Assembly (NCBI GenBank): GCA_019359675.1
Contig: JAHHGX010000082.1
Location: 1-64,000, forward strand
Reading direction: 5' to 3'
Length of the DNA stretch: 64,000 nt
Source of the DNA: Calothrix sp. FI2-JRJ7
GTDB lineage: Bacteria; Cyanobacteriota; Cyanobacteriia; Cyanobacteriales; Nostocaceae
Translations under genes and position numbers: made by a program
The notes under the pieces: model-generated
Databases searched by the model: none
Seen by the model: only the letters and a program-made list of their open reading frames with translations
Told to the model about the DNA's origin: nothing
In this document: one piece after another, positions 12,333-38,710 of the stretch
Layout of the letters: every line of letters begins with the position of its first letter
Numbering within the stretch: the first letter of the stretch is position 1

Positions 12333-15300
12333 ATGCAGCCAGTTTTTCAAGTGGGGCAACTAGTATGCTTACGAGCAGAACCGTCAAGATTAGGGCCAAT
12401 TATAGAAATTCTTCCACCTGTTAGCGGGCAACATCGCTACCGTGTTTTTCATTCTCTTACCCAGATCGGCGAATATCACGAAGAGCAATTGCTAGCGGTT
12501 GATGACACATCTAATAAATTCGCAAAAATTACAGAAATTCTTACCGCAGGTCAATGGCTAGAAGTTGACAAGTTTCGTGCCCAACTAACCGCATCCCGTC
12601 TCTCTAATCCACAAATTGATAATCTTTATGCTTTACAAGCAGCAAGAATTCAGTTTATACCTTTCCAGTTTAAGCCTCTACTGCGTTTTCTCCGTGCAGA
12701 ACAACCTCGTCTTTTAATTGCAGATGAGGTTGGTGTTGGAAAAACAATTGAGGCAGGCTTAATATTAAGAGAGCTACAAAGTCGGCAACACTTGGAAAAA
12801 GTACTTATAGTCTGTGGTCAGAAAGACCTTGTACCTAAATGGCAAAAAGAGATGCGCCGTTTTGATGAAGATTTTCGTCCTTTGACAGCAGAAAATCTTA
12901 ATTACTGCTTGCGTGAGTCACATTTAGATGGTGTATGGCCTCAACAATATTCTCGTGCTATAGTCCATCTGGAATTGCTCAGAATGGAAAAATATGTTTT
13001 TGGACAAGGTAAGCCTAAAAGTAGTAAGTACCAACCAGGTTTATTTAATCTTGAACCTCCACCCAAATTTGACTTGGTTATCGTTGATGAGGCTCACCAT
13101 CTCAGAAATCCTGAGAGTTGCTCGCATGAAGTAGCTCAATTTTTATGTGAGATTAGCGAAGCTGTTGTTTTCCTTTCTGCTACACCTTTACATCTTGGTA
13201 ATAAAAATCTCTATACCCTGTTAAATTTATTACGTCCAGACTTGTTCATTGATGAAACCGTTTTTAACGAAATGGTTGAGCCAAACCGATATATTAACCA
13301 AGCTATTCGCTGTATTCGTCATCAGGCGCCAGAAAATAATTGGCTTTTGTCAGCATCTGAGGCTTTAGAAAAAGCTGTAAACACTGATTGGGGTAAAAAA
13401 GTATTAAATAAAGATTTTAGATTTATAAATTGGTCTCAAAAGCTTAGTCAAAGTCATAATTTAACTGATGTAGAAAGGATTAGTTGTTTACGAGACTTGG
13501 AAGAAGTCCATACCTTGGCTCATGTAATGAATCGTACCCGTAGAAGGGATATTAGTAAATTTACGATTAGAGAGCCACAAACAATCCTTGTACCTTTTAC
13601 ACAAGAACAACAGGAGTTTTATGAAGCATTGCTAGAATTTCGTACTCGAATGCTCCTGCAAGATCATGATGCACAGATTGTTCGCTTTATATTAGATACG
13701 TTGGAACGTCAAGTCTCTAGCTGCTTACCAGCACTTGTACCACTATTGGATACGTTCATCAGTACTGGAAGGTTTAGTTCTCAAGTTGCAAGCGATGATG
13801 ACTTTGAGGAACAAGAATTTAGGCTATCGTCCGAATTAGTAGAGCAATCAGAAAAACTTCGTCAACTAGCAGCTAAACTACCAAAAGAAGACCCAAAATT
13901 TAATAGGTTGTTAGAAATTGTCAAAACAGCTATATATAGTAATGAAGGACCTGGTAAAGTTTTAGTCTTTTCATTTTTTCTGAAAACTATATTTTATTTA
14001 GAAGAACAATTACAACAACAAGGCATACGAATTGGTGTTATAACTTCTAAAACGCCTGATGAAGAAAGGGAAATATTACGCGAGCGTTTTAGATATTCGC
14101 GAGATAATTTAGAGGCAATTGATGTTTTGTTATCTTCGGAGGTGGGATGTGAAGGCTTGGACTATGAGTTTTGTGACCGACTTGTAAATTATGATATTCC
14201 TTGGAACCCAATGCGAATTGAGCAACGTATTGGACGAATAGACCGTTATGGGCAGAAGAGTGAAAAAGTACTTATATATAATTTTGTTACACCAGACACG
14301 GTTGAAGAGCGTATTTTTTTCAGATGTTTTGAGCGTTTAGGAATTTTTCAAGACACAATAGGCGATTTAGAAGAAGTGTTGGGAAATACAGTACAAGATT
14401 TAACTCGAATTGCGCTTGACCCAAACTTGACACCACAGCAGGCAGAACAAAAGGCGCAGCAGAAAGCTGATAATGTTCTTCGTTTAGCAGAAGAGCAACG
14501 TCGGCTTGAATCTGAGGGCGATAATTTATTGGGCTTGGATACAAGTTTTACAGAAGAAGTTGAAAATTTAATAGATCAAGGTAGATTTGTCAAGCCTGAT
14601 GATTTACGCCAGATGATTACAAAATTTTTGGTGCAACCTAGTTTTGGAGGACAAATTACTGCTGATAGTCGCCACTCTGGACTGTATCGACTACGATTAA
14701 ATAAAGATGGAAGAAATACTTTACTGGAAAAAGTACGTGAATTAAATGATTTCAACCGCACAACTCGGATTTTTACAGATTGGTTGGAAGGTAACGAAGC
14801 ATACTGGACGATAATCTTTGAGCAGCAAGTAGCGCTTGAAAATCGTGATATCCCATTTATTACACCAATTCACCCCTTAGCAAAGTTAGCAGCAAATTAT
14901 TGGGCTAGTATTGACGAACCATTAGTTACCCAAATTCTCATCCACGACAATTCTTTACCATCTGGACACTATTTATTTTCGTGTGACCTTTGGGAAACAG
15001 TAGCTGTAAGGTCTGAAACTCAGTTAGTGTCACAAGTTTGGAATTTAGAATGCTCTTGCTTGGTGCCGGAGATTGCAAGTGTGTTAGGGCGTTTGTTAAG
15101 CAGTGCTGAACAGCCATCAGAATTTATTAATATTGAACGTCAAACTATTGAGCTAGCTATTCAGCAGTTAGATGAAGCCGCACATCAGCAACGTTTAGAA
15201 GCCTTGACTGCACTACGAGAGCGTAATGATAATATATTGAATAACAAGCTGGCTTCTTTAGATAGTTATTATCAAAATCGTAGTGCTAAGGTTGCTAATG

Positions 15301-15503
15301 AGCTTCGACAGTCAACTAATGAGCGAATCATAAAGATGAAAGAAGCTGAAGCTCGGCGCCTGCAAAGAAATTATGAAACTAGACGTAGAGAATTAGAGAA
15401 CCGCCGAGAAGCCGATATTGTTAGTAAACGAATTGCTGTGGGTATCCTAAATGTAAAAGGGGATACAAAATATGAACAGCAACTACCTAGAAATAACATC
15501 TGA
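12333..15503 (+). CDS. SNF2-family helicase (defence-associated)
   Basis: 1056 residues. The N-terminal small beta-domain (FQVGQLVCLRAEPSRLGPII) is followed by the SNF2 ATPase: Walker A LIADEVGVGKTIEAG (about 125-140), DEAH box LVIVDEAHHLRN (about 248), SATP motif (VVFLSATPLHLGN), the C-terminal helicase lobe with motif VI EQRIGRIDRYGQ (about 627-638), then a long C-terminal coiled coil (about 950-1045). The motor is intact. It likely translocates on double-stranded DNA. Its last 32 nt overlap the start of the sacsin-type ATPase gene, so the two are translationally coupled and probably form a complex. GGCGCC sites are rare here compared with the later genes, which suggests a separate origin. 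It is not a recognised named Drm protein. Confidence 0.88.
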   Translation: MQPVFQVGQLVCLRAEPSRLGPIIEILPPVSGQHRYRVFHSLTQIGEYHEEQLLAVDDTSNKFAKITEILTAGQWLEVDKFRAQLTASRLSNPQIDNLYALQAARIQFIPFQFKPLLRFLRAEQPRLLIADEVGVGKTIEAGLILRELQSRQHLEKVLIVCGQKDLVPKWQKEMRRFDEDFRPLTAENLNYCLRESHLDGVWPQQYSRAIVHLELLRMEKYVFGQGKPKSSKYQPGLFNLEPPPKFDLVIVDEAHHLRNPESCSHEVAQFLCEISEAVVFLSATPLHLGNKNLYTLLNLLRPDLFIDETVFNEMVEPNRYINQAIRCIRHQAPENNWLLSASEALEKAVNTDWGKKVLNKDFRFINWSQKLSQSHNLTDVERISCLRDLEEVHTLAHVMNRTRRRDISKFTIREPQTILVPFTQEQQEFYEALLEFRTRMLLQDHDAQIVRFILDTLERQVSSCLPALVPLLDTFISTGRFSSQVASDDDFEEQEFRLSSELVEQSEKLRQLAAKLPKEDPKFNRLLEIVKTAIYSNEGPGKVLVFSFFLKTIFYLEEQLQQQGIRIGVITSKTPDEEREILRERFRYSRDNLEAIDVLLSSEVGCEGLDYEFCDRLVNYDIPWNPMRIEQRIGRIDRYGQKSEKVLIYNFVTPDTVEERIFFRCFERLGIFQDTIGDLEEVLGNTVQDLTRIALDPNLTPQQAEQKAQQKADNVLRLAEEQRRLESEGDNLLGLDTSFTEEVENLIDQGRFVKPDDLRQMITKFLVQPSFGGQITADSRHSGLYRLRLNKDGRNTLLEKVRELNDFNRTTRIFTDWLEGNEAYWTIIFEQQVALENRDIPFITPIHPLAKLAANYWASIDEPLVTQILIHDNSLPSGHYLFSCDLWETVAVRSETQLVSQVWNLECSCLVPEIASVLGRLLSSAEQPSEFINIERQTIELAIQQLDEAAHQQRLEALTALRERNDNILNNKLASLDSYYQNRSAKVANELRQSTNERIIKMKEAEARRLQRNYETRRRELENRREADIVSKRIAVGILNVKGDTKYEQQLPRNNI

Positions 15504-18500
15504 TAACATCCGGCGCCGTGGCGAAGACTTTGATGACATTGGTTCTTTTGTCGCGGAGCAACTGTACAGTGACCGGACTCACTTTATATACGAATTACTG
15601 CAAAACGCTGAAGATGCTCTTGCCCGACGGCTTAAAAGTGAGCCAGATAGCAATTTCCCTAAAAGTGTAACCTTCAAGCTGTATCCTGACCGCTTAGAAG
15701 TAAGTCATTTTGGAGAAAAATTTTCAGAGAAGGATGTACGCGCGATTTCAGATATACTTCGAGGAACTAAAAAAGATAATAATAAGCAAATAGGTAAATT
15801 TGGTATTGGGTTTAAATCAGTTTATGCCTTTACCTCAACTCCAAAAATACATTCGGGGGATGAACACTTTCAGATTGAGCGTTTTATCCGATTATCTGGG
15901 ATAGAAGCAAGAGAATTACTAGAGGGACAAACACTGTTTATTTTCCCGTTTAACCATCACTCAGAATCTCAGCTTAATACATTTAACCGCATCAATAATT
16001 TCCTTAGCTCATTAAAACCACGTATTCTCATATTTTTACGCAATATTGAAGAAATCTCTTGGAGTGTGGAAAATAATAACGGTCAGACTGTAAGTGGATA
16101 TTATAGACGGGAATCTGAGCAAATAGATGTTGTTTCTATAAAAGGTAAAAATCCAGAGAAATGGCTGATATTTAGTAAGTCAATGCCAAATACTAATGTA
16201 GAAGACAACGTAAAAGTAGAAGTCGCTTTTCTGCTTGGGCATGACCAATCTACTGGTGCAGAACAAATTATACCTGTAAATAATGGCTCACCTTTATTTG
16301 TGTACTTTCCCACAGAAATTGAAACAGAATTAAAATTTTTGATTCAAGGACAATATCGAACTACACCTGCACGCGATAATATTCTTAGAGATGATGATTT
16401 CAATAAAAATTTGATTGCGCTTACAGCAACACTAATCGCAGAAGTATTGCCAAAAATTCGTGAACGAGGTTTATTAACAGTTAGTTTTCTTAACATACTA
16501 CCAATACGTAAATCTGATTTTGAGAAAAATTCTTTATTTCTCCCAATTTTTGATGAGGTAAAATCTACCTTTCAACAAAAAAAGTTACTGCCTACTATTG
16601 AAAAAGGTGAGTATGTTTCATCACAACATGCAAAATTAGCCCGCAGTAAAGATTTACGTCAGTTACTAGCACAAAAACAGTTAATGCAATTATTCCAAGG
16701 TAATTATAGATGGTTATCAGATGAGATTACTTTGGGTAAAACGCCTGATATATATACATATATTAAAGATGAACTAAAAATACAAGTTGTTGAACCAGAA
16801 GAGTTTGGACGACAATTAAATAAATCTTTTGTTGAGCAACAGACAGATGAATGGCTAGCTGAGTTTTATGCTTTTTTAAATAGTCAAGCAGCACTATGGA
16901 GAAGTGATGGAGTATTAAGAAAAAAAGCATTTATTCGGTTAGAAGATAAAACTCACGTGGCACCATTTAATAGAGATTTACCAAATGCTTATATTGTTTT
17001 GTCACAAAATGAGAAGACAGAATTTCCTATTGTTGCAAGAGCTATTATTTCAAATAAGGCACATGGAAAAGATGCTCTTAGGTTTTTACTATATCTTGGA
17101 TTATCTCAACCAGATGTATTCGACGAAGTGATGAGTAAAACAATTCCAAAGTATGAGCAAGGAATTATTAAAATTACTGATACCATTGCACATGAAGAAA
17201 ATATTAGTAAAATTATACAAGCTTTAAAACACGTATCTGTTTCAAATACTAATAAAGATAAAAAAGAAAAATTAATTAGTAGGCTAAAACAAACGCCTTT
17301 TCTTCGGGCTGTTAATTTTGTTACAAACAGAAAGATTTATAAAAAGCCTGGTGATAAAATCAAAGAAATAATATATTTTCCTTCTCCTGAGTTAGAAGTT
17401 TATTTTAAAGATAACCCAGACATATGGTTTTTAGATGAAACATCAGCAGAAAAAGAGCAGTTTAGTATTTTAGGAGTACTTAATAAAGTAAAAGTTGTTT
17501 GTAGAGTACCTGAAGCTGATGGAAACATAATTATCAAAAGTTCTCGTAGTAATCATCAGCGAGGATTAAGAGGGTTTGATCCTAACTGTGAAATTGACGG
17601 ATTAGAGTTTGCTCTGTCAAATCCAACAGTTGTGAAATCTACGTATATTTGGAATAATTTATTAAAAGATAATATACAGCATATATCAGGAGAAATTCAA
17701 TCATCTACTACTAAAACATTTACTAATCCAGAACCTCCAATAAGAATGGTTTCCAAATTAGGAAATCTTGTTTGCAACAAGGCATGGCTTCCTGATAAGA
17801 AGGGTAAGTTTCATGTACCAAGTAACTTATCTCTTGACGATTTAAGCGGAGATATCATAAAAAGCCCAGTGTTAGCCAAAAGTTTGGAAGTGAAACCAGC
17901 AAAATCACTCCAAGAATTAGAAGCACAATTATTTAAGCGATTTAAGAAAAAAATTAAGTTTGAATTACTAGATTATGTGATGAATAATCCAGAAACAATT
18001 GAAAGATTAATCCACGAAGAGCAAATTAAAAGCTCTCAACAAGCAAAGACACATCATAATACTAAGAATGAGAATCAAGAAGAAGCTGATTTAGATTATC
18101 TTGCAGCTTTAAGAGAAGCATTTAACCAACCAGGACAAACAGAGTTACTGGATAGTCATCTTCCATTAGCTCCTATTCCTGACCCTAAAGATAGAGAAAG
18201 CAAAGTAAAAAGTGAAATTAGAGATGGTAAAAAGCAGGAACCTTTTCGAGTAGAGCGTTTTAAAAAGGTGCCCGTAAATCAATGGGAATCAAAAAATACT
18301 GAGTTTGTTAGAGGTTTTCTCAAAAATACATATGGAGGAAATTGTCAAATTTGTGATGCTACTTTTCCAAAAAGGGATGGCACCGCCTATTTTGAAGGAC
18401 TTTATATAGTATCTTTTTCCAAAGCAAGATGGATTGACAGACCAGGAAACGTCTTATGTTTGTGTGCTAACTGTTGTGCTAAATTCCAGCATGGCTCCGT

Positions 18501-18681
18501 TGAAGTTAATGAAGACATACTTGAACAAATTAGTAGGTTTAAACCTCATAGTGCTGGTGGCTCAACAGAATATAGAGTAAGTATTCAACTTTGTGGAGAA
18601 CCAGCAGAAATTAGATTTAATGAGAGGCATATGATAGAGATGCAGCAATTAATCGAAGTCGCTGCCGAAGATGATTCATAA
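15472..18681 (+). CDS. Sacsin/HSP90-type ATPase with C-terminal Cys4/HNH-like motif
   Basis: 1069 residues. The N-terminal GHKL ATPase resembles the sacsin repeat region: N-box FIYELLQNAEDALARR (about 40-55), then GKFGIGFKSVYAFTSTP (about 108-124) as the G2 box. A long middle region has no recognised motif. Near the C-terminus, CQICDATFPKRDG and NVLCLCANCCAKFQHGS (about 960-1015) give two CxxC pairs in HNH-like spacing. The usual catalytic histidine pair is replaced by GLYIVSFSK, so it may be a zinc finger rather than an active nuclease. The start overlaps the upstream SNF2 gene by 32 nt. A defence role in partnership with that helicase is inferred. Only one GGCGCC lies in 3.2 kb, at its 5' end. 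Confidence 0.82.
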   Translation: MNSNYLEITSDNIRRRGEDFDDIGSFVAEQLYSDRTHFIYELLQNAEDALARRLKSEPDSNFPKSVTFKLYPDRLEVSHFGEKFSEKDVRAISDILRGTKKDNNKQIGKFGIGFKSVYAFTSTPKIHSGDEHFQIERFIRLSGIEARELLEGQTLFIFPFNHHSESQLNTFNRINNFLSSLKPRILIFLRNIEEISWSVENNNGQTVSGYYRRESEQIDVVSIKGKNPEKWLIFSKSMPNTNVEDNVKVEVAFLLGHDQSTGAEQIIPVNNGSPLFVYFPTEIETELKFLIQGQYRTTPARDNILRDDDFNKNLIALTATLIAEVLPKIRERGLLTVSFLNILPIRKSDFEKNSLFLPIFDEVKSTFQQKKLLPTIEKGEYVSSQHAKLARSKDLRQLLAQKQLMQLFQGNYRWLSDEITLGKTPDIYTYIKDELKIQVVEPEEFGRQLNKSFVEQQTDEWLAEFYAFLNSQAALWRSDGVLRKKAFIRLEDKTHVAPFNRDLPNAYIVLSQNEKTEFPIVARAIISNKAHGKDALRFLLYLGLSQPDVFDEVMSKTIPKYEQGIIKITDTIAHEENISKIIQALKHVSVSNTNKDKKEKLISRLKQTPFLRAVNFVTNRKIYKKPGDKIKEIIYFPSPELEVYFKDNPDIWFLDETSAEKEQFSILGVLNKVKVVCRVPEADGNIIIKSSRSNHQRGLRGFDPNCEIDGLEFALSNPTVVKSTYIWNNLLKDNIQHISGEIQSSTTKTFTNPEPPIRMVSKLGNLVCNKAWLPDKKGKFHVPSNLSLDDLSGDIIKSPVLAKSLEVKPAKSLQELEAQLFKRFKKKIKFELLDYVMNNPETIERLIHEEQIKSSQQAKTHHNTKNENQEEADLDYLAALREAFNQPGQTELLDSHLPLAPIPDPKDRESKVKSEIRDGKKQEPFRVERFKKVPVNQWESKNTEFVRGFLKNTYGGNCQICDATFPKRDGTAYFEGLYIVSFSKARWIDRPGNVLCLCANCCAKFQHGSVEVNEDILEQISRFKPHSAGGSTEYRVSIQLCGEPAEIRFNERHMIEMQQLIEVAAEDDS

Positions 18682-18774
18682 TATGCTTTTATATATTTGT
18701 GATGGCGCCGCCTTTGGGTAAACACGATTAGCACTTGGTAGTATATCATACTTCTTGGTGGTAAGAACAAATAA

Positions 18775-21700
18775 TTGGTAATGGCTAATCTGCTTGCTGG
18801 TACAGAAGTTGAAGCACGAAATTTACGTTGGGAGGTAGTCTCTTCCACCCAGTTAGGGCAACAAACTCTTTACAGGTTACGCTGTTTGGAGGGGGAATTG
18901 CTCGGAAGAGAATTTGACATCCTTCATCCCTTTGAGTCTGTGGCGCCAATAATTCGTGACTTGCGTCCAGGTAAAGCGGCGCCTTTACCTAATTGGTTAG
19001 TTTATCATCAAGCTTTTTTGCTGGAACAAGCTTTGGGAAGTGATGCAATACTTGCTGTACAACCAGGTCGTTTACGTGTAGAGGCGTATCAATTAGTTCC
19101 TGTATTACGAGCAATCCGCATGAGTCGAGTGCGGTTACTGCTTGCAGATGGGGTAGGTTTAGGGAAAACTATTCAAGCTGGATTAATTATTACTGAGTTA
19201 ATGGCGCGACGGGTAGCGCATCGCATTTTAATTGTGTGTCCAGCAGGGCCATTGTTGGAACAGTGGAAGTTGGAGATGGCGGAACGCTTTGGTTTACGGA
19301 TGGATGAGGTCAACCGAGGTAGGTTGGAAGAAATTCGTCGCAGTACAGAGCTAGGCGCCAACATGTTCGATTATATTCCTCTAGGTATTGCTTCGATTGA
19401 TTTTCTCAAGCAAGAGAAAATTCTGGAGTTATTAGAGCGCGCAAGTTATGACATGGTAGTACTGGATGAAGCGCACCATTGTATGGACTTAGGCAATATT
19501 GAAGAAAGGGAAGACTCTCAACGGCGCCGTTTAGCATCTGTTTTAGCAAGACGTTGTGATTCATTATTATTGTTAACGGCAACTCCTCATGATGGGAATG
19601 ACCGTTCGTTTGCTTCGTTGTGTGAGTTATTGGATTTGTCTTTAGTAGATGGTGTGGGAAATTTAAGAGGGGAACGTTATCGTAATCATGTTGTTCGTCG
19701 TTTAAAGTCGCATATTCCCAACCGTTTCAAAAATCGCATTGTGGAACCAAAACCAGTTGTTGCCAATAGTAATGAGCATCCTGATTATGTAGCATTACAA
19801 CAAGGTTTACTTGAGTTTTTGGCGCCAGAATTGCGGAAAGCTTTTCAAAAGAAGCGTTATAGCGATGTTTTAGCTTTTCTAGCTTTGCTCAAACGTAGTG
19901 TTTCTACAGTAGATGCTTGTAAAGCTACGCTCTCAGTAGTTGCAGAAAGATTTCAGCAGTTATTAACATCTGGTTCAGAAACTCAAGAAAGTCGTCGTCA
20001 GCGGTTAAAAAGTTTGCGGGAATATTATCGCAAAATAGAACGGTTTGGCACGGTAAGTTTTGAAGAAGAACAAGAACAATTTACCCTAGAAACAGAAGAA
20101 TTAGCCCAAAAGCTGGCAGAATTACAAAGAGAGGTGCGTTCTGAGTCTCGTTCGTTAACAAAAATTTCTAGTTTTGTTGAAGCATTAGATAATTTAGTTG
20201 ACTTAGCTGACGCTGCAAGTAACCAAGACCCAAAATTACAACAGTTAATTAGGGAAATTCAAGATATTCGCGCGCGTGAAAACAACGCCAATGTTTTAGT
20301 TTACACAGAATATACAACTTCTCAACGCGCGGTAGCAAAGGCACTGGCAGCAGCTAATATTAGTACAGTGCTGACATTGAGTGGTAATGATAGCGATAAA
20401 GTCAGGCTAGAAATTACCGACCGTTTCCGTAGTGAAGGTAATTTGGTGTTAGTTAGTACAGATACTGCGGCAGAAGGTTTAAATTTACAGCAGCGTTGTC
20501 ATCACTTAATACATTTAGAATTACCATTTAACCCCAACCGTTTGGAACAGCGTAATGGACGCATTGACCGTTATGGACAAGAGTATGACCCAGTAGTACG
20601 TTATTTATTTTTGCGTGGTACTTTTGAAGAGCGAATTTTATTAAGATTAATTGCAAAATACGAACGTCAGCGCGCTTCGTTAACTTTTGTTCCCAACACC
20701 TTGGGGTTAACAACTTCTTCAGATGCTTCTGCCGTGCGGTTACTACAAGGTTTAATGGAAGAAGACCAAAAACTGTTTAAGAATGATACACCGCTATTGG
20801 TTGATTTTCATTCTACTGAAGATGATAATACAGGCGCCGACGCAGCGACAAAGGAACTTTTAGAAGAAATTGACCGTTCGTTAAAGGGTTTCCAGCAAGC
20901 AGCAAGGACACATGCTTGGTTAGGAGATGCAGGAATGAACGCAGAAAAACAATTGTTAGCAAAAGCAACAGAAGCGAGAGAAAAAGGTGCTAGCACTGCT
21001 GCGGTTGACTTATTTAACTTTGCTCGCGATGCAGTTTTACTCGATGGTGGAGATTTTCAGGTCAGTAACCATCCAGAAATTTTTACAGTGCGTCTTCCCT
21101 CAGTTTGGAGTTATGGACTCGATGAGTTACCTGGATATGACACAGACACTCGTTGTTTACGGTTAACTACTAATATAGATATAACCCGCGATGAACAAAA
21201 TCGTCCTGTTGGCTTTTTAGGTCGCGCGCATCCTTTGGTCAGACGTGCTTTAGATAGAGTACGTAATTTATCATTTGGTGGCGCCGATAGTAACCAAGAT
21301 AGTCGTGTTAGTGCCGTAAAAGCAGATATTAAAACTTATACTTTATTATTTACCTTCTTGGGTAGAGTAACCAGCGGCGCCGGGTCAGAATTTGAAAGAG
21401 TCTTAGCAGTAAAAGTATCGCTAGATGGGGAAACCCTATTTTACGACCAAGCAGAAGAATGGTTATCTCTAGCAGACCCGAAAAAAGCAATACGAACAAA
21501 AGACGTATGGAAAAACTACTTTGAGCAAAGCTTCTCAACCGCAAAAGAGCAAGCACAAAATATAGCTCAACAAAATTGGTCATCCATAGCATCCAACTTT
21601 AGCGCATCTCATAATCGCGAAATGGAGATAGAAAAAGCGCGTCAAACCGAATGGTTACAACAACGTAGTCAAGAAATTACAGGAACACAAGTAGAAACAG

Positions 21701-21957: not shown

Positions 21958-21971
21958 GTTTTCAAATTATA

Positions 21972-24560: not shown

Positions 24561-24589
24561 TTATTTCTCCATACACACCAAATATAATT

Positions 24590-25618: not shown

Positions 25619-25760
25619 AACGCCTCTCATCCTAAATAATTTTTTATAGTATTATTGTATCGTTAAATGGGTTTTGCGAAAATAATATAGTGTACTCATA
25701 GATTTTAAGGCAAATTGTGCCAGATGCTTCTATCTGGGCATGACAGAAGCTAAAGCGTAG

Positions 25761-25833
25761 GTTGGGGAGCCACCTCCGTGCGCGGGTTTCCCGCGTTGAG
25801 GAGAGTGGCGTTGGAGGCTTTGCGTAACCCAAC
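25761..25833. repeat. Nested hairpin repeat (GTTGGGGAGCCACC family)
   Basis: Outer arms GTTGGG (25761-25766) and CCCAAC (25828-25833) enclose an inner hairpin CGCGGG-TTT-CCCGCG (25781-25795). The unit GTTGGGGAGCCACCTCCGTG resembles a repeat common in filamentous cyanobacterial genomes. It occupies the 355-nt gap between the AAA gene and the methylase gene, which otherwise holds no gene; a degenerate ATCCGTTACATCCG copy lies near 25890. Confidence 0.7.
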
Positions 25834-25985
25834 ATATCGATTACATAGTAACCAAAAGGTATGAAGGCGCCTCCAAAACAAACAACCTATCCGTTACATC
25901 CGCTATAATCCGTTGCCAGCGACATAACACTAAATTTTAAGCTACACTTCAGCTTGAGGATATTTGTTAACTCGCCCATACTATA

Positions 25986-30917: not shown

Positions 30918-32999
30918 ATGTCTACTTTAGCTACATCAACTTGGGCTGTATCTTTTGCTCATACGTTTCTCAACGAAATCCTTAATATACCGAGAAAAAT
31001 TAGCCAGCGCTTACCCAAAGTAGTCAAGGTGCTGGAGAAAGACCCTATTTCTGCCCAAGGGGATGCTAAAAAGCTAAAGAACTATAAAAATGTTTATCGC
31101 GTTCGCATTGGTGACTACAGGTTAATTTATAGTATCGGTAAAAACAGTGTTAAGCTGCTTAGTCTCCGTAAACGCAATGAAAGAACTTACGAGTTGGAAT
31201 TTTCTGCGTCAGAGACCGAAGTCGTTGATATTACTGATTGTGAACCAATTTTAGAAGAGACTGAGACGTGGGTAGACCAGATAAACACGGCGCCAAACAA
31301 TATAGTAGACGTGACATGTCTCGTCTCTACAAATTTGAAAAAATGGCGCATTCCTGAAGAATATTGGAAAGATTTACTTCATGTTCGCACGGAAGATGAT
31401 TTGTTAAACTTACCAATACCTCACCAGTTTATCGAGCGCATTTTAGATAACCTGTTCCCGCGCGCTTTGGAAGAAATTGATACTCAACCAGAATACTTGC
31501 TGCAAAACCCCGAAGACTTGGAGCGTTATGTAGAAGGTGAGCTTACTGCTTTTTTGTTAAAACTTGACCCTGAACAAGAGAAGTTACGCGATGGAATAAC
31601 CAATGGCCCGACTTTGGTTAAAGGTGGCCCTGGTACGGGAAAGTCAACTTTAGCGCTGTATCAGGTGCAAAAACTCCATAATTTGGGTTGTAAGTCTATT
31701 TTGTTTACTACTTATACTAATGCGCTTGTTAATTACTCAGAGCAACTTTTAACTCAATTATTAGGTAAGTCCCCCAAAGAATGCGGTGTTGACGTTCTTA
31801 CCGTTGACTTTCTAACTTATCATTACTACAAACAGCGCTACGGTGAAGCTAATTTCGCTAAACCCGAACAAGCGCTTGGTTATTTACAAACAGCACTACA
31901 TTCTACACAAATTCCTGCTAAAAACGCTTTTGACCGTCAAGTACAATTACAAACTTTGCAGCGTTTGGGTACGAGTTACCTGCTCGAAGAAATATTAGAT
32001 GTCATCGAAGCTTGGGGTATTTCTAGTTTAGACGAATATCTCGCCACAAGTCGCCAAGGTCGGGGAGTTCCTCTTCGCAGTCAAACGCGCACAGCTATCT
32101 GGGCAGTATACCAAACTTGGCGCCAGCGTATGGCACAAAACCGTTTAATTACTTGGCAGCAATTACGGTGCCTAGCTTTAGAATATGTTTTAACACTTCC
32201 GCAAAAACCTTACGAAGCAATTCTAATTGATGAAGCGCAAGATTTATCACCCGTTGCTCTACGGTTCTTACTTGCGCTTGTACCTTCATTTACAAAAGTT
32301 TATCTGACAGCAGATGCTTCTCAATCTTTATATCAACGGGGTTTTACCTGGAAGCAAGTCCATACAGATTTAAAAGTAAGTGGACGCACTTTAACGTTGC
32401 GACGTAATTATCGTAACACTCAACAAATCGTTACAGCTTGTGCCAGTATATTAGAAGGAACGGGTGCAGGTGATGACGAATGTCTGCAACAATTATCTTC
32501 TCCTTACCAAGCAAATTTACCAACTTTACTTTTAGCAGATAGCATCGACAAGCAAGTGCAAGCGATAGGCGAATTTTTTACCAGTGCTGCAAAACAGTTT
32601 CGTCTTACTATATATGGTGGCGCCGTATTATGTCCAAATTACCAAGTCGGACAAGACATTGCTCGTCGTTTAACTAAATGCGGTTGGGAAGCAGCATTTG
32701 TCTCTGGTAAAGAAATTAACCTCAACGCGCGCAAAATAAAGGTGTTGACACTGCATTCTGCCAAGGGTTTAGAATTTCCTTTTGTAGCTGTAGTCGGTTT
32801 ACAAGAAGGAATGCTACCGCGTATTGATGCTAATATTCCTCAAGATGAAGTTACTGCTACACTTAACGAACAACGACGTTTATTTTACGTCGGTTGTACT
32901 CGTGCTATGCGCGCGTTAACTGTTGTTGGTTCTAAAAAGTCTCCTTCTCAGTTTCTCAACTCTCTTTCACCGTCAAATTGGCAAAAGCAGGAAGCGTAA
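30918..32999 (+). CDS. UvrD-family helicase with N-terminal RelE/ParE-like domain
   Basis: 693 residues. Residues about 1-100 resemble the RelE/ParE toxin fold: KKLKNYKNVYRVRIGDYRLI followed by IGKNSVKLLSLRKRNERTY, including the conserved Arg positions and terminal Tyr. After a linker (100-220) comes an SF1 helicase: Walker A VKGGPGTGKSTLAL (about 233), Walker B ILIDEAQDLSPVAL (about 433), motif III-IV region TADASQSLYQRGF, motif V LTLHSAKGLEF, motif VI RRLFYVGCTRAMRAL (about 648). It is shorter than UvrD itself and lacks large inserts. The stop overlaps the start of the next helicase (TAATG), so expression is coupled. It probably acts on DNA ends made by the island's other motors (inference). 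The RelE-like part may bind nucleic acid or block translation. Confidence 0.85.
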   Translation: MSTLATSTWAVSFAHTFLNEILNIPRKISQRLPKVVKVLEKDPISAQGDAKKLKNYKNVYRVRIGDYRLIYSIGKNSVKLLSLRKRNERTYELEFSASETEVVDITDCEPILEETETWVDQINTAPNNIVDVTCLVSTNLKKWRIPEEYWKDLLHVRTEDDLLNLPIPHQFIERILDNLFPRALEEIDTQPEYLLQNPEDLERYVEGELTAFLLKLDPEQEKLRDGITNGPTLVKGGPGTGKSTLALYQVQKLHNLGCKSILFTTYTNALVNYSEQLLTQLLGKSPKECGVDVLTVDFLTYHYYKQRYGEANFAKPEQALGYLQTALHSTQIPAKNAFDRQVQLQTLQRLGTSYLLEEILDVIEAWGISSLDEYLATSRQGRGVPLRSQTRTAIWAVYQTWRQRMAQNRLITWQQLRCLALEYVLTLPQKPYEAILIDEAQDLSPVALRFLLALVPSFTKVYLTADASQSLYQRGFTWKQVHTDLKVSGRTLTLRRNYRNTQQIVTACASILEGTGAGDDECLQQLSSPYQANLPTLLLADSIDKQVQAIGEFFTSAAKQFRLTIYGGAVLCPNYQVGQDIARRLTKCGWEAAFVSGKEINLNARKIKVLTLHSAKGLEFPFVAVVGLQEGMLPRIDANIPQDEVTATLNEQRRLFYVGCTRAMRALTVVGSKKSPSQFLNSLSPSNWQKQEA

Positions 33000-35900
33000 T
33001 GAATATACTTTACCTCAAAGATATATTAAAACAGGGTGATGATGCCATCGCTGCCGCCAGCACTTTTCTCAGTCTGAAAATGGCTCAGTTAGACTGTTCT
33101 GAGGTAGATAATATTACAACCGCACAACTTACACTGCTATTTTCCAAGATTCCTGAAACTTGGGAATTTGTCGAACTCGCAGAAGGAGTTATTAACGTTG
33201 AAACTTTCAGCGAGACTCTAGCTACACAGTTTGTTGATTTTATTAATAACAGGCACCTACCACAACCCAATAGCGCAAATAATCATCAAAACAAAAATAC
33301 TACTAAGGACGCAGGTGTTAAAGATAGGGGGTCAGGATATTATGTATCTCCATCACCTGTGAAGGACAGACAAGATGCCTATCCTGCGGTATCGTTGGTT
33401 GCTAAGGACAGGCAAGATGCCCATCCCACGGTTCCTCTCCACCCAATTAAAGTTCTTGATAAGGTTATTACTGAGTACCGAGACTATCTAATAACCGAAT
33501 TTAGAGCAAAAGACCCAAAGTTAAAAGCCGCTTTAGAACAAGCTATTGACCAACCTTTATTTTTAGCCCAAGAACCATTTTATCAAGCACATCGCCCTTT
33601 CAAATCTGGTGATGCATGGCGCCAGTTACCTATCGATGCAAAACTAGCGCAAGTAATGCAAAAACGTTCGCGTAGTGAGTTTGCTTATTTACACCAAAGT
33701 GAAGCTATTAAACATTTATTAGGAGAAAATGCTTCCCCTTTAGTTGTTACAACTGGCACAGGTAGCGGTAAAACAGAAACTTTTCTTTTACCTGTTATTC
33801 AAAACGCTATCGAAGATGCAACCCAGTTTCGCAGGCACCCTGGACTAACGGCAATACTCGTTTATCCAATGAACGCTTTAGCTAATGACCAATTACTGCG
33901 TATTCAGAATTACCTAAAAGAATCTGGATGGGATGGTGCGATTACTGTTGCAAAATACGACCGAGGTACTACGCAAAAAGAACGTATTGCATTACGTCAA
34001 AATCCACCGCATATTCTTTTAACTAATTATATGATGCTGGAATACCTTTTAGTACGCCCAGCAGATAGAGAAGATATTTTTGCTAACCATCGCTGTCGCT
34101 TCTTAGTACTCGATGAAGTTCATACTTACCGTGGCACTTTGGGAAGTAATATTGCATTGTTAGTACGACGCTTACGAACTCACCTAAACAATGCTAACCA
34201 AGATTGGTGTATTACTGTCCCAACAGAAGTATATTCCAAACGCTATCCTGAATTTCTCCCCGTCGCAACTTCTGCAACTATTAAAAGTGTAGCTGAGGGA
34301 GAATACACCCCCGAAGAAAAAATTCGTCTTCGAGATGAAGCCGTTCAAGAGTTTTTTCATAAAATTTCCGGCGCCTCTAAATCAAGTATACGAGTCATCG
34401 GTGAAGAACTAGCAGAAATTCAAACACCAGCAGAAGCAGTATATTCTCCCCAACCTGTAAATATTGCTGACCTAGATGTAACTGACCCAGAAGCTGTTAG
34501 AAAAGCCCTTAATATTCTTAGTGATACTCAGCACTCAGCACTCAGCACTCATCACTCCCGTTTATTGTGGGATTTAAATCGCTGGTTAATTCGTTCTCCC
34601 CTTTCAATTTCCCAACTTGTTGATAAGGTTAAACAAGAAATTAAAGAACGTTCGCACTTCTCAAATACCGAAATTGAAAAAGAAATCCGTACTGCTTTAC
34701 TAGTTGGCGCCGCTTTACCAGAGGGTACACCAGGTGCTTTACAACTACGCGCGCATCGATTTATTCGTGGTGGTTGGCAATTTCACCGCTGTATTAACCC
34801 AACTTGCGGCAAACTTTACCCAATGGGTGAGGAACGCTGTGAGTGTGGTTGTGTAACGGCGCCTCTTTACCTTTGCCGTAACTGTGGTGCAGATTATTTA
34901 CGCTTCGTTGGCGAACCTACTGCCGCACCGTTACAACCCAGTGCTGTTCCAGATGAAACAGAATGGATGCTTTATGACCATAATCGCTTTGATGATACAA
35001 ATATTGGAATTGGAGAAGAAGATGAAGATATTAATGATGAAGTGGCACCTCAAGTTCGTCGAGGTACTCAAAAGAAACCGCAACAAATTAAACGTAAACC
35101 AATATTGAATGGTTCATTTGATATTTCTAGTCTTGCTTTTAGCAGCGATGCAAATGATTATCCTTGGCGTGTTACTTTAGCCCCCGCTCGAACTCGCTGT
35201 CTGTGTTGCGGCGCCACTGCGGGTAGTCGTAATGTTATTACACCCGTAGCTTTAGGAACTTCGGCGGCAGTAAAAGTACTAAGCGAAGGTTTGGTAGAAT
35301 CTTTAGCGACAACAAACCGCAGTCAACCAGGATATGACGGTAAAGAAAGATTATTAATTTTTAGCGATAGTCGTCAAGATGCTGCACACCAAGCTAGATT
35401 TATTGTTTTCGCTAGCCGCTACGACCGAATGCGGCGCCGGGTAGTAGAATTATTATCTAATGAAGCATTATCTTTACAAAGAGTTGTAGAACTTCTAGGC
35501 GACAAAGGCGTAAAAGAGCAAGATAATAAATATGCCCCTATTGACCCAAGTGCATGGATTAATGATGAAAATATGCAGAGAATCCGTGCGTGGGAAGAAG
35601 CTCCTTTACTCGATGAAATAGCCGTTACTGCTGGTTATCGCGCGACTTTAATCAATCTAGGATTAGTGCAAATCAACTATCATCGTTTAGACGAATATGT
35701 AAAGCAGCAAGGTACAGACATTGCTAGAAGTCTTGGTATATCAAGAGAAAACTTAGAATATATTTGCCGTAGTTTACTTAATGAAATGCGACGACGTGGT
35801 TGTGTTAGTAGGGAATTATTACGTTATCATCCTGCACATCCAAGTTGCCCTAGTTACACCAAAGCTGCTGAGTGGGAACGACGGTTAAAAAGACCCCAAG

Positions 35901-38710
35901 GTTATGCACTTTCGTCTGGTTTACCCGTTGCTTACATAGATAGTGCTAATGTACCTTATGGTGTGCAAGCAAGTAACCCTTGGCGAAAACCTAAAGCTGG
36001 TGGCAGAGGACCAAGTTTAGAACGAATTTTCAAGCATTTATTGTTACGGTTTGGTGGTATTGTACCAAACGAAGAAAACATCGTTGAATTATTAGAATGG
36101 TTATTACAAGGCAGTTTTGTGATAGCTGCCGATGTATATGGTTTTCGAGATAAAACACAACTTCTACAAGTAAATGCGGAAGTACTGCATTTACAATTAT
36201 CTACCGAACAAAAACGTTACCGTTGTCAAGTTTGCGCTACCCCAATGTTAGGAGGACAAAATAATTATCCTTGTCCTTACTGTCATGGTAATTTAATTCG
36301 CTGGCACCAGTCGGAAGTAATGGAAAATCGTCATGTTAAAAGAATACTCTCAGCAGATTTTATTCCCTTGGTTGCAGGAGAACATACTGCCCAAGTACCC
36401 AACGACCTGCGTGTAGAATTAGAAGATGACTTCAAAGCAACAGCATCTCAATCAAAAATTAATTTATTAGCTTGTTCTCCAACCCTAGAAATGGGTATAG
36501 ATGTTGGTGGTTTAGATGCAGTAATTTTACGAAATATCCCACCACGTCCTGATAACTATGCTCAACGAGGAGGACGTGCAGGGCGCCGAACTCGTATAGG
36601 TTTAGTAGTAGGGTATGCTCGCAATACTCCCCACGACCAATATTTTTATGATAAACCTGGAGAAATGATAGCTGGAGAAGTACCTGCACCAGCTTTAGCA
36701 CTAGGAAACCGAGACGTAATTTTCCGTCATTTAAATGCTATTGCCTTTGGCGCCGCCTCTCCTGGTTTAGCAAGCAAAATGGTAGAATACATTACTACAG
36801 TAGGTGATATTAACACTGAAAAAGTCGAAGCATTGATTGCTGGAGTTCAAGCTCAAACCGATAAAGCAATTAGTATCGCTAACATGGCTTGGCAAGGTAT
36901 TGTATTAGAAGAAGCAGGACTCGATGAAAACGCTCTACGTCAACACCTAAATAAATTACCCGAACGTATTTGGGATGTAATTAACCGCACAGCATTACAA
37001 GTAAAACAACTTAGAACTGCCCTAGATACTTATTCTCAAGACCTACAAGGAGAACGCGCGGCAACTCGCGCAGGTCAATTAGTTGCCCGAATTTTAGGGC
37101 TTCCAACAGACAGACAAGGCAATAAAGAAGCAGACGACCGTTCGAGTGGGTATCCATTGCGACGCTTTGCCGAATTTGGCATCCTTCCTGGTTACGAATT
37201 TCCCACACAACCCGCTGCACTGCGACTATTAGGAGATGAACACGAAGAAGACCCTGTAAGTGTCGCGCGACGTTTTGGTATCGGTCAATTTCAACCCGAA
37301 GCACAAGTATTTGCCCGTACCAAACGCTGGAAAGTAATAGGACTAGATAATGCTTCACCCTGGAACCCAAGAAGCGAAGGCGCCACTTGGTTATATAGAA
37401 TATGCAATACTTGTAAACTACGCTTTGAAGCTGACAAACCCGCTTGTCCGCGATGTGGGAATAACGCACCAGGAAAAGCACATCCAGGTGGAGAGTTTGC
37501 TGGTTTCTTAGCACGACGCGATGAAAGTCCTATCCTTGATGAAGAAGAACGTTATGTCACCCGTAATTTAGTTAAAACTTACCCACAATGGGACGGGCAA
37601 GTATTAGGACGTTGGACATTAAGCAATGGTTGGGGTTTACGATGGAGCCAAGATGAAGAAGTACGCTGGGTAAATGAAGGAGTGGCGCCGAAAGATAAAG
37701 ACAGAGAACAAGGTATTCCTTTATTACATGATGAAGCCAAAGGATACATGTTATGCGCCGATTGCGGGAAAATGTTACAAAACCCCGATTTAATACAACC
37801 AACTTCAGGACGACGTAAAACCCGTCAAACTGGAGAAGACCCCTACGGTCATGCAGAAAATTGCAGCCAAAAAGGTAAGGCGCCGCAACCCTTAGCAATT
37901 GTAACAGCAGGCAAAGCAGAAATATTACGATTAACAATCCCCGTTCCCACTTCCATAGACGAAGAAGACTTACAATCTTGGGGATTATCACTTGGTTATG
38001 CATTAAAAGCAGGAATGCAGCACTTGTATATGCTCGATGGCTCTGAAATTGACTTTGAATATGAGGCGCCTTGGCTTGTTAACAGCAATGGTAAAAAATA
38101 CAACATGATTTCGCTGACATTTATTGACCCTAGTTTAGGTGGCAGTGGTTACTTACGCCGCATTGCTACAGAATTACATCAAGTAGCAAAAAGAGCAATT
38201 GAACACTTAGACCATCCCAACTGCGAAACAGCATGTTACCGTTGCTTAAAATCCTATCAAAATCAGCGATACCACGAATTGCTCAACTACCCCCAAATTA
38301 TGAGTGCCTTAGAGCAACTTTCCCATACGCCACCAACACAGCAACCATTAGAAACAGGCGATATTAAAGACCCACTTCCTTGGTTAGAAGCATATGCAGC
38401 AGGAGTTGGTTCACCGCTCGAACTTAAATTTTTGCGGCTATTCGAGCAGTATAACTTCCATCCTCAAAAACAAGTACCAATACCATCCGAGGCGCCTATT
38501 TCCATCGCTGACTTTGCGATGCCAAAAGAGCGACTAGCAATATATATAGATGGCGCCGCATTTCATAGTGGAGGAAACAGACTGCGTGATAAATTCATCC
38601 GCGACCGTTTGCGTGGCGCCAATCCTCCTTGGCATATAGTAGTTTTGTATGCTGCGGATTTAGCTAAGGGTAAGGCATTGGTAGAGGAATTAAAGGATAT
38701 TATTAGGTAA
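32999..38710 (+). CDS. Giant DEAD-box/DUF1998 helicase with C-terminal nuclease-like domain
   Basis: 1903 residues from ATG 32999, overlapping the previous stop (TAATG). Order: N-terminal region with two repeat-derived inserts; Walker A VTTGTGSGKTETFLLP (about 250); DEVH box FLVLDEVHTYRG (about 370); Cys-rich cluster CINPTCGKLYP and CRNCGADY (about 600-635); CQVCATP and CPYCHG (about 1075); motifs V-VI CSPTLEMGIDVGGLD and QRGGRAGRR (about 1155-1200); further CxxC pairs (about 1470 and 1585); DUF1998 with HPNCETACYRCLKSYQNQRY (about 1740); last 100 residues like a DUF559/Vsr PD-(D/E)XK fold (SPLELKFLRLFEQY, ISIADFAM, LAIYIDGAAFH). It combines what DISARM splits into DrmA (helicase) and DrmB (DUF1998), with a nuclease-like tail where DrmC (PLD nuclease) would be expected. 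Confidence 0.85.
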   Translation: MNILYLKDILKQGDDAIAAASTFLSLKMAQLDCSEVDNITTAQLTLLFSKIPETWEFVELAEGVINVETFSETLATQFVDFINNRHLPQPNSANNHQNKNTTKDAGVKDRGSGYYVSPSPVKDRQDAYPAVSLVAKDRQDAHPTVPLHPIKVLDKVITEYRDYLITEFRAKDPKLKAALEQAIDQPLFLAQEPFYQAHRPFKSGDAWRQLPIDAKLAQVMQKRSRSEFAYLHQSEAIKHLLGENASPLVVTTGTGSGKTETFLLPVIQNAIEDATQFRRHPGLTAILVYPMNALANDQLLRIQNYLKESGWDGAITVAKYDRGTTQKERIALRQNPPHILLTNYMMLEYLLVRPADREDIFANHRCRFLVLDEVHTYRGTLGSNIALLVRRLRTHLNNANQDWCITVPTEVYSKRYPEFLPVATSATIKSVAEGEYTPEEKIRLRDEAVQEFFHKISGASKSSIRVIGEELAEIQTPAEAVYSPQPVNIADLDVTDPEAVRKALNILSDTQHSALSTHHSRLLWDLNRWLIRSPLSISQLVDKVKQEIKERSHFSNTEIEKEIRTALLVGAALPEGTPGALQLRAHRFIRGGWQFHRCINPTCGKLYPMGEERCECGCVTAPLYLCRNCGADYLRFVGEPTAAPLQPSAVPDETEWMLYDHNRFDDTNIGIGEEDEDINDEVAPQVRRGTQKKPQQIKRKPILNGSFDISSLAFSSDANDYPWRVTLAPARTRCLCCGATAGSRNVITPVALGTSAAVKVLSEGLVESLATTNRSQPGYDGKERLLIFSDSRQDAAHQARFIVFASRYDRMRRRVVELLSNEALSLQRVVELLGDKGVKEQDNKYAPIDPSAWINDENMQRIRAWEEAPLLDEIAVTAGYRATLINLGLVQINYHRLDEYVKQQGTDIARSLGISRENLEYICRSLLNEMRRRGCVSRELLRYHPAHPSCPSYTKAAEWERRLKRPQGYALSSGLPVAYIDSANVPYGVQASNPWRKPKAGGRGPSLERIFKHLLLRFGGIVPNEENIVELLEWLLQGSFVIAADVYGFRDKTQLLQVNAEVLHLQLSTEQKRYRCQVCATPMLGGQNNYPCPYCHGNLIRWHQSEVMENRHVKRILSADFIPLVAGEHTAQVPNDLRVELEDDFKATASQSKINLLACSPTLEMGIDVGGLDAVILRNIPPRPDNYAQRGGRAGRRTRIGLVVGYARNTPHDQYFYDKPGEMIAGEVPAPALALGNRDVIFRHLNAIAFGAASPGLASKMVEYITTVGDINTEKVEALIAGVQAQTDKAISIANMAWQGIVLEEAGLDENALRQHLNKLPERIWDVINRTALQVKQLRTALDTYSQDLQGERAATRAGQLVARILGLPTDRQGNKEADDRSSGYPLRRFAEFGILPGYEFPTQPAALRLLGDEHEEDPVSVARRFGIGQFQPEAQVFARTKRWKVIGLDNASPWNPRSEGATWLYRICNTCKLRFEADKPACPRCGNNAPGKAHPGGEFAGFLARRDESPILDEEERYVTRNLVKTYPQWDGQVLGRWTLSNGWGLRWSQDEEVRWVNEGVAPKDKDREQGIPLLHDEAKGYMLCADCGKMLQNPDLIQPTSGRRKTRQTGEDPYGHAENCSQKGKAPQPLAIVTAGKAEILRLTIPVPTSIDEEDLQSWGLSLGYALKAGMQHLYMLDGSEIDFEYEAPWLVNSNGKKYNMISLTFIDPSLGGSGYLRRIATELHQVAKRAIEHLDHPNCETACYRCLKSYQNQRYHELLNYPQIMSALEQLSHTPPTQQPLETGDIKDPLPWLEAYAAGVGSPLELKFLRLFEQYNFHPQKQVPIPSEAPISIADFAMPKERLAIYIDGAAFHSGGNRLRDKFIRDRLRGANPPWHIVVLYAADLAKGKALVEELKDIIR
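33362..33445 (+). repeat. Two in-frame copies of a 42-bp repeat inside the giant helicase gene
   Basis: Units starting AAGGACAGACAAGATGCC (33362) and AAGGACAGGCAAGATGCC (33404) encode KDRQDAYPAVSLVA and KDRQDAHPTVPLHP. The sequence resembles a cyanobacterial interspersed repeat that has entered a linker without breaking the frame (42 = 14 codons). Confidence 0.75.
34526..34560 (+). repeat. Heptamer tandem repeat (ACTCAGC)n inside the giant helicase gene
   Basis: Three perfect ACTCAGC units followed by ACTCATC and ACTCCCG, encoding the stretch TQHSALSTHHSR. This is the STRR type of heptanucleotide repeat known in heterocystous cyanobacteria, here inside coding DNA with the frame kept. Confidence 0.8.

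Follow-up and report, generated by a model that had tools for sequence, protein, structure and literature searches.

A defense island of Calothrix sp. FI2-JRJ7 with an ARMADA-type core, probably of a third deep lineage

The gene island of Calothrix sp. FI2-JRJ7 on contig JAHHGX010000082.1 (C82) raises the question of which defense system it encodes. The whole stretch analyzed, positions 1–64,000 of this contig, is called the window here. A first-pass annotation of the window had listed two SNF2 helicases, a GHKL ATPase, an AAA/subtilisin pair, an Eco57I-type methylase, a RelE/UvrD helicase and a giant protein of 1903 residues. All of these were real, and each gene was located in place by frame reading and by PADLOC, Pfam and NCBIfam matches. 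Judging from gene order, the set is more than chance, because the same order recurs in other phyla. The core of the island (ArmA, ArmB, ArmD and ArmC; Table 1) is ARMADA by composition, with hidden Markov model and motif evidence for all four genes. In the trees, the claim that ArmA, ArmB and ArmC form a third deep clade beside Types I and II, new here, was strongly supported. The core is likely an ARMADA-type restriction-like system of this third, deep lineage, for which a mechanism and a cargo slot are proposed below.

Family of the core genes

According to excerpts of the September 2025 preprint that defined ARMADA, linking DISARM and Druantia (PMC12458937), the core consists of a BrxHII-like helicase (ArmA), a PglX-like methylase (ArmB) and a YprA-like helicase with a C-terminal Vsr-type nuclease (ArmC). 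ARMADA is further characterized by a BrxA-like insert behind RecA1 and by zinc modules in ArmC. Type II adds a RelE-UvrD protein (ArmD). The same excerpts state that ARMADA and class 1 DISARM have genes of the DrmD/DrmMI kind in common, and give the A-B-C order for Type I of many archaea and cyanobacteria. Only Type II was tested experimentally there, in Escherichia coli; all four genes were required, and protection was non-abortive, with cells remaining intact. ARMADA is also mentioned in an excerpt of PMC13192584, and the word occurs once in PMC12904381. Passages of PMC12839542 and PMC3710099 gave no match to the present gene set.

In the window, a BrxHII/RapA-like ArmA and a PglX/YeeA-like ArmB were neighbors, with an IetAS pair between them. 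ArmC was a YprA-family protein with RecA domains and DUF1998/MZB (Pfam DEAD, Helicase_C and MZB). Its start is probably the ATG at 32999, giving 1903 residues, because this start overlaps the upstream stop codon by 1 base and agrees with the starts of relatives. A Vsr-type nuclease at the ArmC C-terminus was indicated by a fold match on a model of pLDDT (predicted local distance difference test) 64 and by conserved residues. The best fold match was 3r3p, the I-Bth0305I catalytic domain (probability 1.00, E 0.019), which we take to be Vsr-like. The nuclease had no sequence-profile match in Pfam, and a PDB sequence profile search gave two matches, with E 0.09 and 0.8. All 11 rows of the window's lineage share the nuclease residues E1815, D1845, D1858, H1863 and D1871. 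In these rows the residues of the helicase, the MZB domain and the nuclease were kept throughout, except for single substitutions at 266 and 1204.

The PADLOC scan covered nine island proteins, and the best 25 of up to 46 matching families were considered for each (best 25 of 33 for ArmC). No family named ARMADA was among these PADLOC 2.0 (2023) families. The first-pass annotation had read the genes as a DISARM variant, in which one giant protein replaces DrmA and DrmB, possibly with DrmC. The core is like class 1 DISARM in having an SNF2 helicase and an adenine methylase of the DrmD/DrmMI kind. A drmD-like gene, a drmMI-like gene, a RelE-UvrD gene and a giant helicase/DUF1998/nuclease gene did make up a defense operon related to DISARM. 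ArmA matched DrmD (384.4 bits) better than one DrmA model (266.5), and ArmB matched DrmMI (307.9). On the curated NCBIfam DISARM_DrmD model, however, ArmA reached 419.7 and SNF2b 328.4, against a cut-off of 610. The giant protein was a fusion of helicase, DUF1998 and nuclease as described, but its best models were DruE1 (423.7) and DruE3 (400.1), with DrmA at just 57.4. DrmA models matched ArmA, SNF2b (153) and ArmC, each below a DrmD or DruE model, and neither DrmB nor DrmC was among the best 25 families of the nine proteins. DISARM was rejected as the family because DrmD was under the curated cut-off and no protein had DrmA, DrmB or DrmC as its best match. The ArmC tree contained no DrmA row. 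A true DISARM variant, with DrmD and DrmMI beside DrmA and DrmB fused into one protein, would explain the DrmD, DrmMI and 266.5-bit DrmA matches and the genes common to both systems. Against the DruE-like score of the giant protein and the missing DrmB and DrmC matches, this explanation is very improbable.

The DruE match of ArmC is to a wider family, because DruE was matched as well by the ArmC of one Type II system and of two Type I systems (294–363 bits on the two best models). We took the partner genes of Druantia to be DruH, or DruA-D, or DruM/F/G. None was among the best 25 PADLOC families of the nine proteins; the island differs from Druantia in this respect, and Druantia was rejected.

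Among ARMADA types, the window resembles Type II (E. coli ATCC 8739 and NCTC 12900; excerpts of PMC12458937) in having ArmA, ArmB, ArmC with a Vsr-type nuclease and a RelE-UvrD ArmD. Identity was about 20–33% in aligned pieces. The gene order is A-B-D-C in the window and A-B-C-D in E. coli, ArmC fell outside the 6 Type II rows, and the window ArmD is optional and belongs to a different clade from Type II ArmD. A plasmid of Cylindrospermopsis curvispora (L116, 12001–28674) carries a Type II ARMADA ordered C-D-A-B, an exception to the strict A-B-C-D order stated for Type II in the excerpts of PMC12458937. Type I (Rhodococcus pCP1, Chroococcidiopsis pCHRO.01) has the same three core genes, and three cyanobacterial Type I systems have the A-B-gap-C order of the window. 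ArmA, ArmB and ArmC of Type I nevertheless form separate clades, and identity between Rhodococcus and the window was about 23–28%.

Position and distribution of lineage W

The lineage of the window was named W here after the tree had been seen. Type labels were assigned here from gene order and similarity to references, in place of the authors' own list and clade limits. Type II references were E. coli ATCC 8739, plasmids of Nostoc linckia, Pseudanabaena PCC 7367, Cylindrospermopsis and Microvirga, and one further contig. Type I references were Rhodococcus pCP1, plasmids of Nocardioides, Deinococcus, Thermus, Chlorohelix, Chroococcidiopsis, Planktothrix and Pseudanabaena galeata, and three further loci. 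The references are a chosen part of what was available. For Type I, 5 of 68 records were used (Nocardioides, D. radiodurans, Thermus, Chlorohelix and Chroococcidiopsis), and Rhodococcus, Planktothrix and P. galeata came from other searches. Further references were 4 of 30 records of a second listing, L104–L106, L113 and the E. coli chromosome.

With 33 rows and 1654 columns, the ArmC tree gathered the 11 W rows in a single clade (support 100) on a stem of 1.58 changes per site. The 11 Type I rows and the 6 Type II rows were likewise one clade each and of similar depth, on stems of 1.66 and 1.91. Three other rows and two Druantia rows fell outside W, Type I and Type II. This tree omits W rows cut at contig ends (L034/L095, L036/L100, L037, L038/L099, L039, L040, L047/L097 and L048) and a nearly full Hydrogenedentes row with in-frame stops (L056). 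W was again one clade in the ArmA tree (14 rows, support 99, stem 1.28; L036 and L037 omitted) and in the ArmB tree (9 rows, support 100, stem 1.56). The ArmB tree omits the broken ArmB of Calothrix sp. PCC 7716, L036, L037, L039, L042, L043, L044, L047, L048, L049 (complete) and L050, and lacks ArmB of G397, D. radiodurans, Thermus and the G400 Type II system. The partition was the same in all three trees, with the Type I and Type II references one clade each. Cyanobacterial Type I systems (Chroococcidiopsis, Planktothrix and P. galeata) fell inside the Type I clade, and W fell outside it. YprA/DruE-like proteins of L109 (G437), L103 (G389) and L112 (G394) were placed outside all three ARMADA clades with strong support.

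Judged by record titles, W members in the trees came from cyanobacteria, Chloroflexota, Planctomycetota, Myxococcota, Lentisphaerae, Hydrogenedentes, Desulfofundulus and one archaeal bin. A further member, in no tree, was found in a bin labelled Pseudomonadota. The locus scan used two short patterns and found at least 17 loci, a lower bound; bins may be mislabelled. One Chloroflexales genome had W and two Type I systems on different contigs. W was rare in the phylum of the window. Full-length ArmB was found in 2 of 386 sampled genomes, as was ArmC, the window's genome included in both counts, and some methylase match at E 1e-30 was found in 40 of 386. Apart from the query genome itself, an ArmC search of 251 genomes of the phylum of G396 gave just one match, at 29% and not in W. 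A search of 299 genomes of the phylum of G399 gave only the query genome. A DruE1 model search of 249 genomes gave no match; control matches were absent too, so this search was uninformative. A third ARMADA type was not found described in the literature searched, which mostly excludes preprints and subscription journals. On a plasmid of Pseudanabaena sp. ABRG5-3 (L031), the W ARMADA lies downstream of a VWA/PP2C/kinase/AAA cluster and adjoins a DruE-like gene in convergent orientation (DruE1 768 bits); the two neighbors of this gene matched no PADLOC model at E 1e-10.

Gene order, exchanged parts and proposed mechanism

ArmA preceded ArmB in 16 of 16 loci showing both, with a spacing of at most 190 bases in 12 of them; the ArmA of L037 is a 97-residue piece only, and in L049 neither ArmA nor ArmC was seen beside ArmB. 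ArmB preceded ArmC in all 14 loci showing both. The B-C gap was at least 1 kb in 12 of these loci and empty in 2. The same order was present in the Pseudanabaena plasmid, Calothrix sp. PCC 7716, Chloroflexales and others. RelE-UvrD occupied the B-C gap in 4 of 14 loci (window, PCC 7716, ABRG5-3 and Chloroflexales). The proposed conservation of DrmD-DrmMI-RelE/UvrD-DEAD order thus held for ArmA-ArmB-ArmC but not for ArmD. By gene order, ArmA-ArmB-ArmC is the conserved core and ArmD is optional.

Other genes were found in the B-C gap. GmrSD-like genes were present in Tolypothrix and Chloroflexales, and also after ArmB in Desulfofundulus, whose ArmC lies on another contig. AAA/DUF234, NOV_C and M78 protease genes were also found, and some gap proteins had no Pfam match. 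In Lentisphaerae, AbiEii lay ahead of ArmC on a contig without ArmB. The four RelE-UvrD loci were the same four with cargo in the A-B gap, against 0 of 7 other loci in which both gaps can be seen; as two of these four loci are near-copies, the co-occurrence is a remark rather than a test. The B-C gap, and at times the A-B gap, would be a cargo slot for interchangeable accessory genes, holding RelE-UvrD in the window and GmrSD-like, AAA/DUF234 or M78 protease genes elsewhere.

In a 12-row tree, the window ArmD grouped with those of PCC 7716, ABRG5-3, Chloroflexales, the Type I system of P. galeata and a BREX gene of Deinococcus sp. NW-56. This group was apart from six Type II ArmD with support 100/100. 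The RelE part of the window ArmD keeps a basic stretch, which we take to be typical of RelE; the stretch was absent from five Type II rows, and the sixth was not alignable. On a plasmid of Deinococcus sp. NW-56 (L125, 11971–13992), a BREX locus contains a RelE-UvrD gene with 35% identity to the window ArmD, flanked by brxC and an N-6 DNA methylase gene. In a term search, UvrD was absent from the main text of a 2026 BREX survey (PMC12839542).

The island of Calothrix sp. PCC 7716 is closely related to that of the window, with identities of 97.2% for ArmA, 93.5% for ArmD, 95.1% for ArmC, 96.5% for IetA, 88% for SNF2b and 85% for GHKL. ArmB differed in one tract. Residues 894–1270 were identical at 183 of 377 positions (49%), compared with 640 of 690 before and 140 of 150 after (93%). 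The DNA match was 89.6% up to 28666, 68.6% at 28885–29471 and 89.9% from 29796, with sharp edges at 28666 and 29796. Bins of 60 residues were at 32–51% in the tract; isolated low bins elsewhere were at 40, 47 and 50%. ArmB matched Pfam Eco57I with 58.2 bits (cut-off 25.3) and has NPPW at residues 864–867. The tract begins shortly past NPPW and is the longest variable stretch in ten ArmB rows. On this alignment, the tract is exchanged between the islands, not eroded. By comparison with known adenine methylases, it is presumed to be the target-recognition region.

Of the 11 W rows, 6 carry an N-terminal module of ArmC, namely the five cyanobacterial ones and that of Chloroflexales; all 3 cyanobacterial Type I rows carry it too. 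At E 1e-5, no match appeared in any of the remaining rows (8 Type I, 5 W and 6 Type II). Its profile matched only ArmC of these kinds among frames of at least 60 residues in loci above 3500 bases. Identity with the Planktothrix Type I ArmC was 42% over 95 residues (E 5e-19). The module was probably traded between W and cyanobacterial Type I ArmC, because the bodies of the proteins match less well than the module (31% identity with Planktothrix in the best stretch). In the structure model, pLDDT was 87–94 over residues 1–80, followed by a disordered linker. No solved fold matched the module, and a STAS-like guess was unsupported (best PDB fold match E 1.0).

The mechanism is proposed from the analogy with E. 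coli Type II and with DruE. In the host, ArmB would methylate adenines at a sequence set by its recognition region, giving a self mark. ArmA, a RapA/BrxHII-like translocase, and ArmC would recognize and destroy incoming unmarked DNA. An excerpt of PMC13192584 reports that Druantia III DruE loads on 3'-tailed DNA. ArmC would probably load on 3' single strands as a DruE-like helicase and carry a C-terminal EDxHD nuclease. ArmD would probably add unwinding, and RNA cleavage through RelE.

Several points weigh against the assignment of the core to a third lineage with this mechanism. All three trees came from fast searches, for which the program issued warnings about meeting long branches and uneven sequence composition. 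The approximately unbiased (AU) tests did not settle how W, Type I and Type II branch. W and Type I as one clade were not rejected (p-AU 0.40), nor were W and Type II (p-AU 0.115); W may therefore be a deep branch within Type I. ArmD is essential in E. coli Type II according to the excerpts of PMC12458937 but absent from the gap in 10 of 14 W loci; the function may therefore not transfer from E. coli Type II to W. The gap cargo may be passive hitch-hiking. The models of the ArmC ends were weak overall, with mean pLDDT 67.7 (N-terminal) and 64.2 (C-terminal). Sequence shows the families and motifs, the gene order, the third clade, the exchanged ArmB tract and the optional ArmD; self marking by methylation, the tract as recognition region, the roles of the single proteins, the function of the slot and activity in this host are inferred.

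The initial idea was that the window holds a plain Type I in reversed order. An ordinary Type I ARMADA, with the reversed order known from cyanobacteria and RelE-UvrD as a chance neighbor, agrees with the A-B-C order given for Type I, with the AU result for W and Type I and with the ArmC N-terminal module common to cyanobacterial Type I. This idea was weakened by the three cyanobacterial Type I systems, which are placed inside Type I with W outside on long stems in all three trees, although the AU tests still allow it. One Chloroflexales genome with W and two Type I systems on separate contigs, and the recurrence of RelE-UvrD in the same gap, also argue against it. We regard it as unlikely, though a serious contender. 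A decaying defense graveyard, with non-working remnants on a mobile element, would account for the in-frame stop of IetS and for the PCC 7716 island, in which transposase-like inserts interrupt both ArmB and IetS. By the reading of translated frames only, the inserts are IS200/IS605-like in ArmB and IS630-like in IetS. In the window, however, ArmA, ArmB, ArmC and ArmD are all full-length open frames, the catalytic residues of ArmC are kept, and the ArmB tract was replaced by another open one. Decay is a distinctly weaker candidate than ordinary Type I.

Neighboring genes, carrier element and meaning of the lineage

The coordinates of the island and of its carrier are listed in Table 1.

Table 1. 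Features of the window (bit scores from the named databases)
Feature	Position	Strand	Evidence or remark
tRNA-Phe (gaa), presumed integration site	10369–10441	+	ARAGORN
Tyrosine recombinase/integrase, 400 aa	10610–11812	+	Pfam Arm-DNA-bind_2 39.6 bits (cut-off 22), Phage_integrase 30.5 (27.1)
23-nt palindrome	12041–12063 (second copy 58872–58894)		Confined to contig C82
SNF2b, RapA/DrmD-like SNF2 helicase	12333–15503	+	Part of separate two-gene system
GHKL/sacsin-like ATPase, cysteine-rich C-terminus	15472–18681	+	Pfam SACS 66.5 bits; NCBIfam sacsin-like 81.1; PADLOC TmtA 200.4
ArmA, BrxHII/RapA/DrmD-like SNF2 helicase	18775–21957	+	PADLOC DrmD 384.4; NCBIfam DISARM_DrmD 419.7; clade W
IetS-like subtilase, interrupted	21972–24560	−	PADLOC IetS 162.2 bits (514-residue piece)
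IetA-like AAA ATPase	24590–25630	−	PADLOC IetA 272.9 bits
ArmB, PglX/DrmMI-like (Eco57I-type) N6-adenine methylase	25986–30263	+	PADLOC DrmMI 307.9; clade W
ArmB variable tract, presumed target-recognition region, ~residues 894–1270	28667–29795	+	Exchange relative to Calothrix sp. PCC 7716
ArmD-like RelE-UvrD helicase, in B-C gap	30918–32999	+	Pfam UvrD_C 73.8, UvrD-helicase, ParE_toxin; tree
RelE/ParE-like domain of ArmD-like protein	30918–31202	+	Pfam ParE_toxin, residues 16–88, 24.8 (cut-off 23); alignment
ArmC, YprA/DruE-like SF2 helicase with MZB (DUF1998)	32978–38710	+	PADLOC DruE1 423.7; Pfam DEAD, Helicase_C, MZB; tree
ArmC N-terminal module, ~90 aa	32999–33262	+	Common to cyanobacterial Type I ArmC
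ArmC C-terminal Vsr/EDxHD-type nuclease domain, putative	38375–38707	+	Fold match 3r3p; conserved residues
CyRepA1 plasmid replication protein	55697–58627	+	NCBIfam CyRepA1 433.2 bits (cut-off 200)

The SNF2b and GHKL frames overlap by 32 nt, and SNF2b is far from ArmA (stem 4.6 changes per site). The pair recurred in PCC 7716 (88/85% identity), in G016 of the same phylum (51/36%) and on an archaeal Methanomethylovorans plasmid (29/35%). ARMADA was not seen in the 20 kb read around the pair in the latter two, which bears out the first-pass view of a separate two-gene system. Counting its own genome, 2 of the 386 genomes of the phylum had the GHKL protein at E 1e-30; of 7 plasmid records matching it, 2 were opened. 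Chryseobacterium had a weaker, partial GHKL relative with no adjacent SNF2b. The protein is like Tiamat TmtA in its sacsin-like GHKL N-terminal part (residues 27–790). It differs from Tiamat in lying beside an SNF2b relative in all four places with long matches that were opened (the window, PCC 7716, G016 and Methanomethylovorans).

The IetAS pair lies on the minus strand between ArmA and ArmB, as the first-pass annotation had proposed, and IetA and IetS were the best PADLOC matches of the adjacent ATPase and subtilase. The pair is like IetAS in joining an AAA protein with a subtilase. It is unlike IetAS in its interrupted IetS, in being nested backwards in ARMADA and in scoring 228.7 against an NCBIfam cut-off of 510 and, for the C-terminal piece only, 96 against one of 900. 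The IetS frame has a single in-frame stop at 23994–23996 (188 and 673 codons in the same frame, with no shift), and an earlier guess of a frameshift or insertion scar was wrong. IetS is broken at different places in the window and PCC 7716, and IetA is open in both. Just past ArmC, a 672-residue protein (38873–40891, minus strand) combines a Swt1-like HEPN domain with a phosphonate-binding (PhnD-like) domain, an odd pairing.

The island has tRNA-Phe and then the integrase at its left and the CyRepA1 gene further along. EF-G lies left of the tRNA and appears chromosomal. A relaxase and a coupling protein were found on the same contig C82 (154,571 bases), with TrbI just below the cut-off. The simplest reading of these genes is that the island is carried by an integrated conjugative-plasmid-like element at tRNA-Phe. 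A search for an attachment-site direct repeat from the tRNA-Phe region gave just two 12-nt matches in the window. Even with 2 mismatches allowed, two tRNA-Phe 20-mers had a single place each in the genome, and the right end of the element was not found. Similarity to the PCC 7716 island runs from 12118 to about 55.2 kb, with 38.7–44.4 kb unmatched; ARAGORN found no tRNA in the two of three PCC 7716 stretches that were scanned. The Type II island of E. coli ATCC 8739 likewise adjoins tRNA-Phe and an integrase. This shared target may be chance, because the two integrases gave no BLAST match at E 1e-3.

Across the 8.66 Mb of the genome, the 23-nt palindrome is confined to C82, where three exact copies and two copies with a single mismatch lie between 12041 and 149881. 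The copies outside the window start at 115281, 128917 and 149859, and these three dispelled the idea of terminal repeats of a 47-kb transposon. The palindrome may be a site for partition or transfer of the element, or an operator.

Occurring in phyla and phototrophs for which no test was found, and with stems comparable in length to those of Types I and II, a third lineage suggests a core of ArmA, ArmB and ArmC with ArmD optional; the E. coli Type II knock-outs, taken alone, would point the other way. The near-identical pair of islands differing in the ArmB tract bears on how ARMADA tells self from non-self. The N-terminal module, and RelE-UvrD in both ARMADA and BREX, suggest that systems usually kept separate exchange parts. 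As a tentative and rather doubtful extension, W may be a distinct ARMADA type that serves as a chassis with plug-in sites: an ordered three-gene core with effectors swapped in a fixed slot beside ArmC. The N-terminal adaptor of phototroph ArmC, traded with Type I, would couple ArmC to effectors. ArmB specificity would be re-set by region swaps, and RelE-UvrD would be a portable effector of ARMADA types and BREX.

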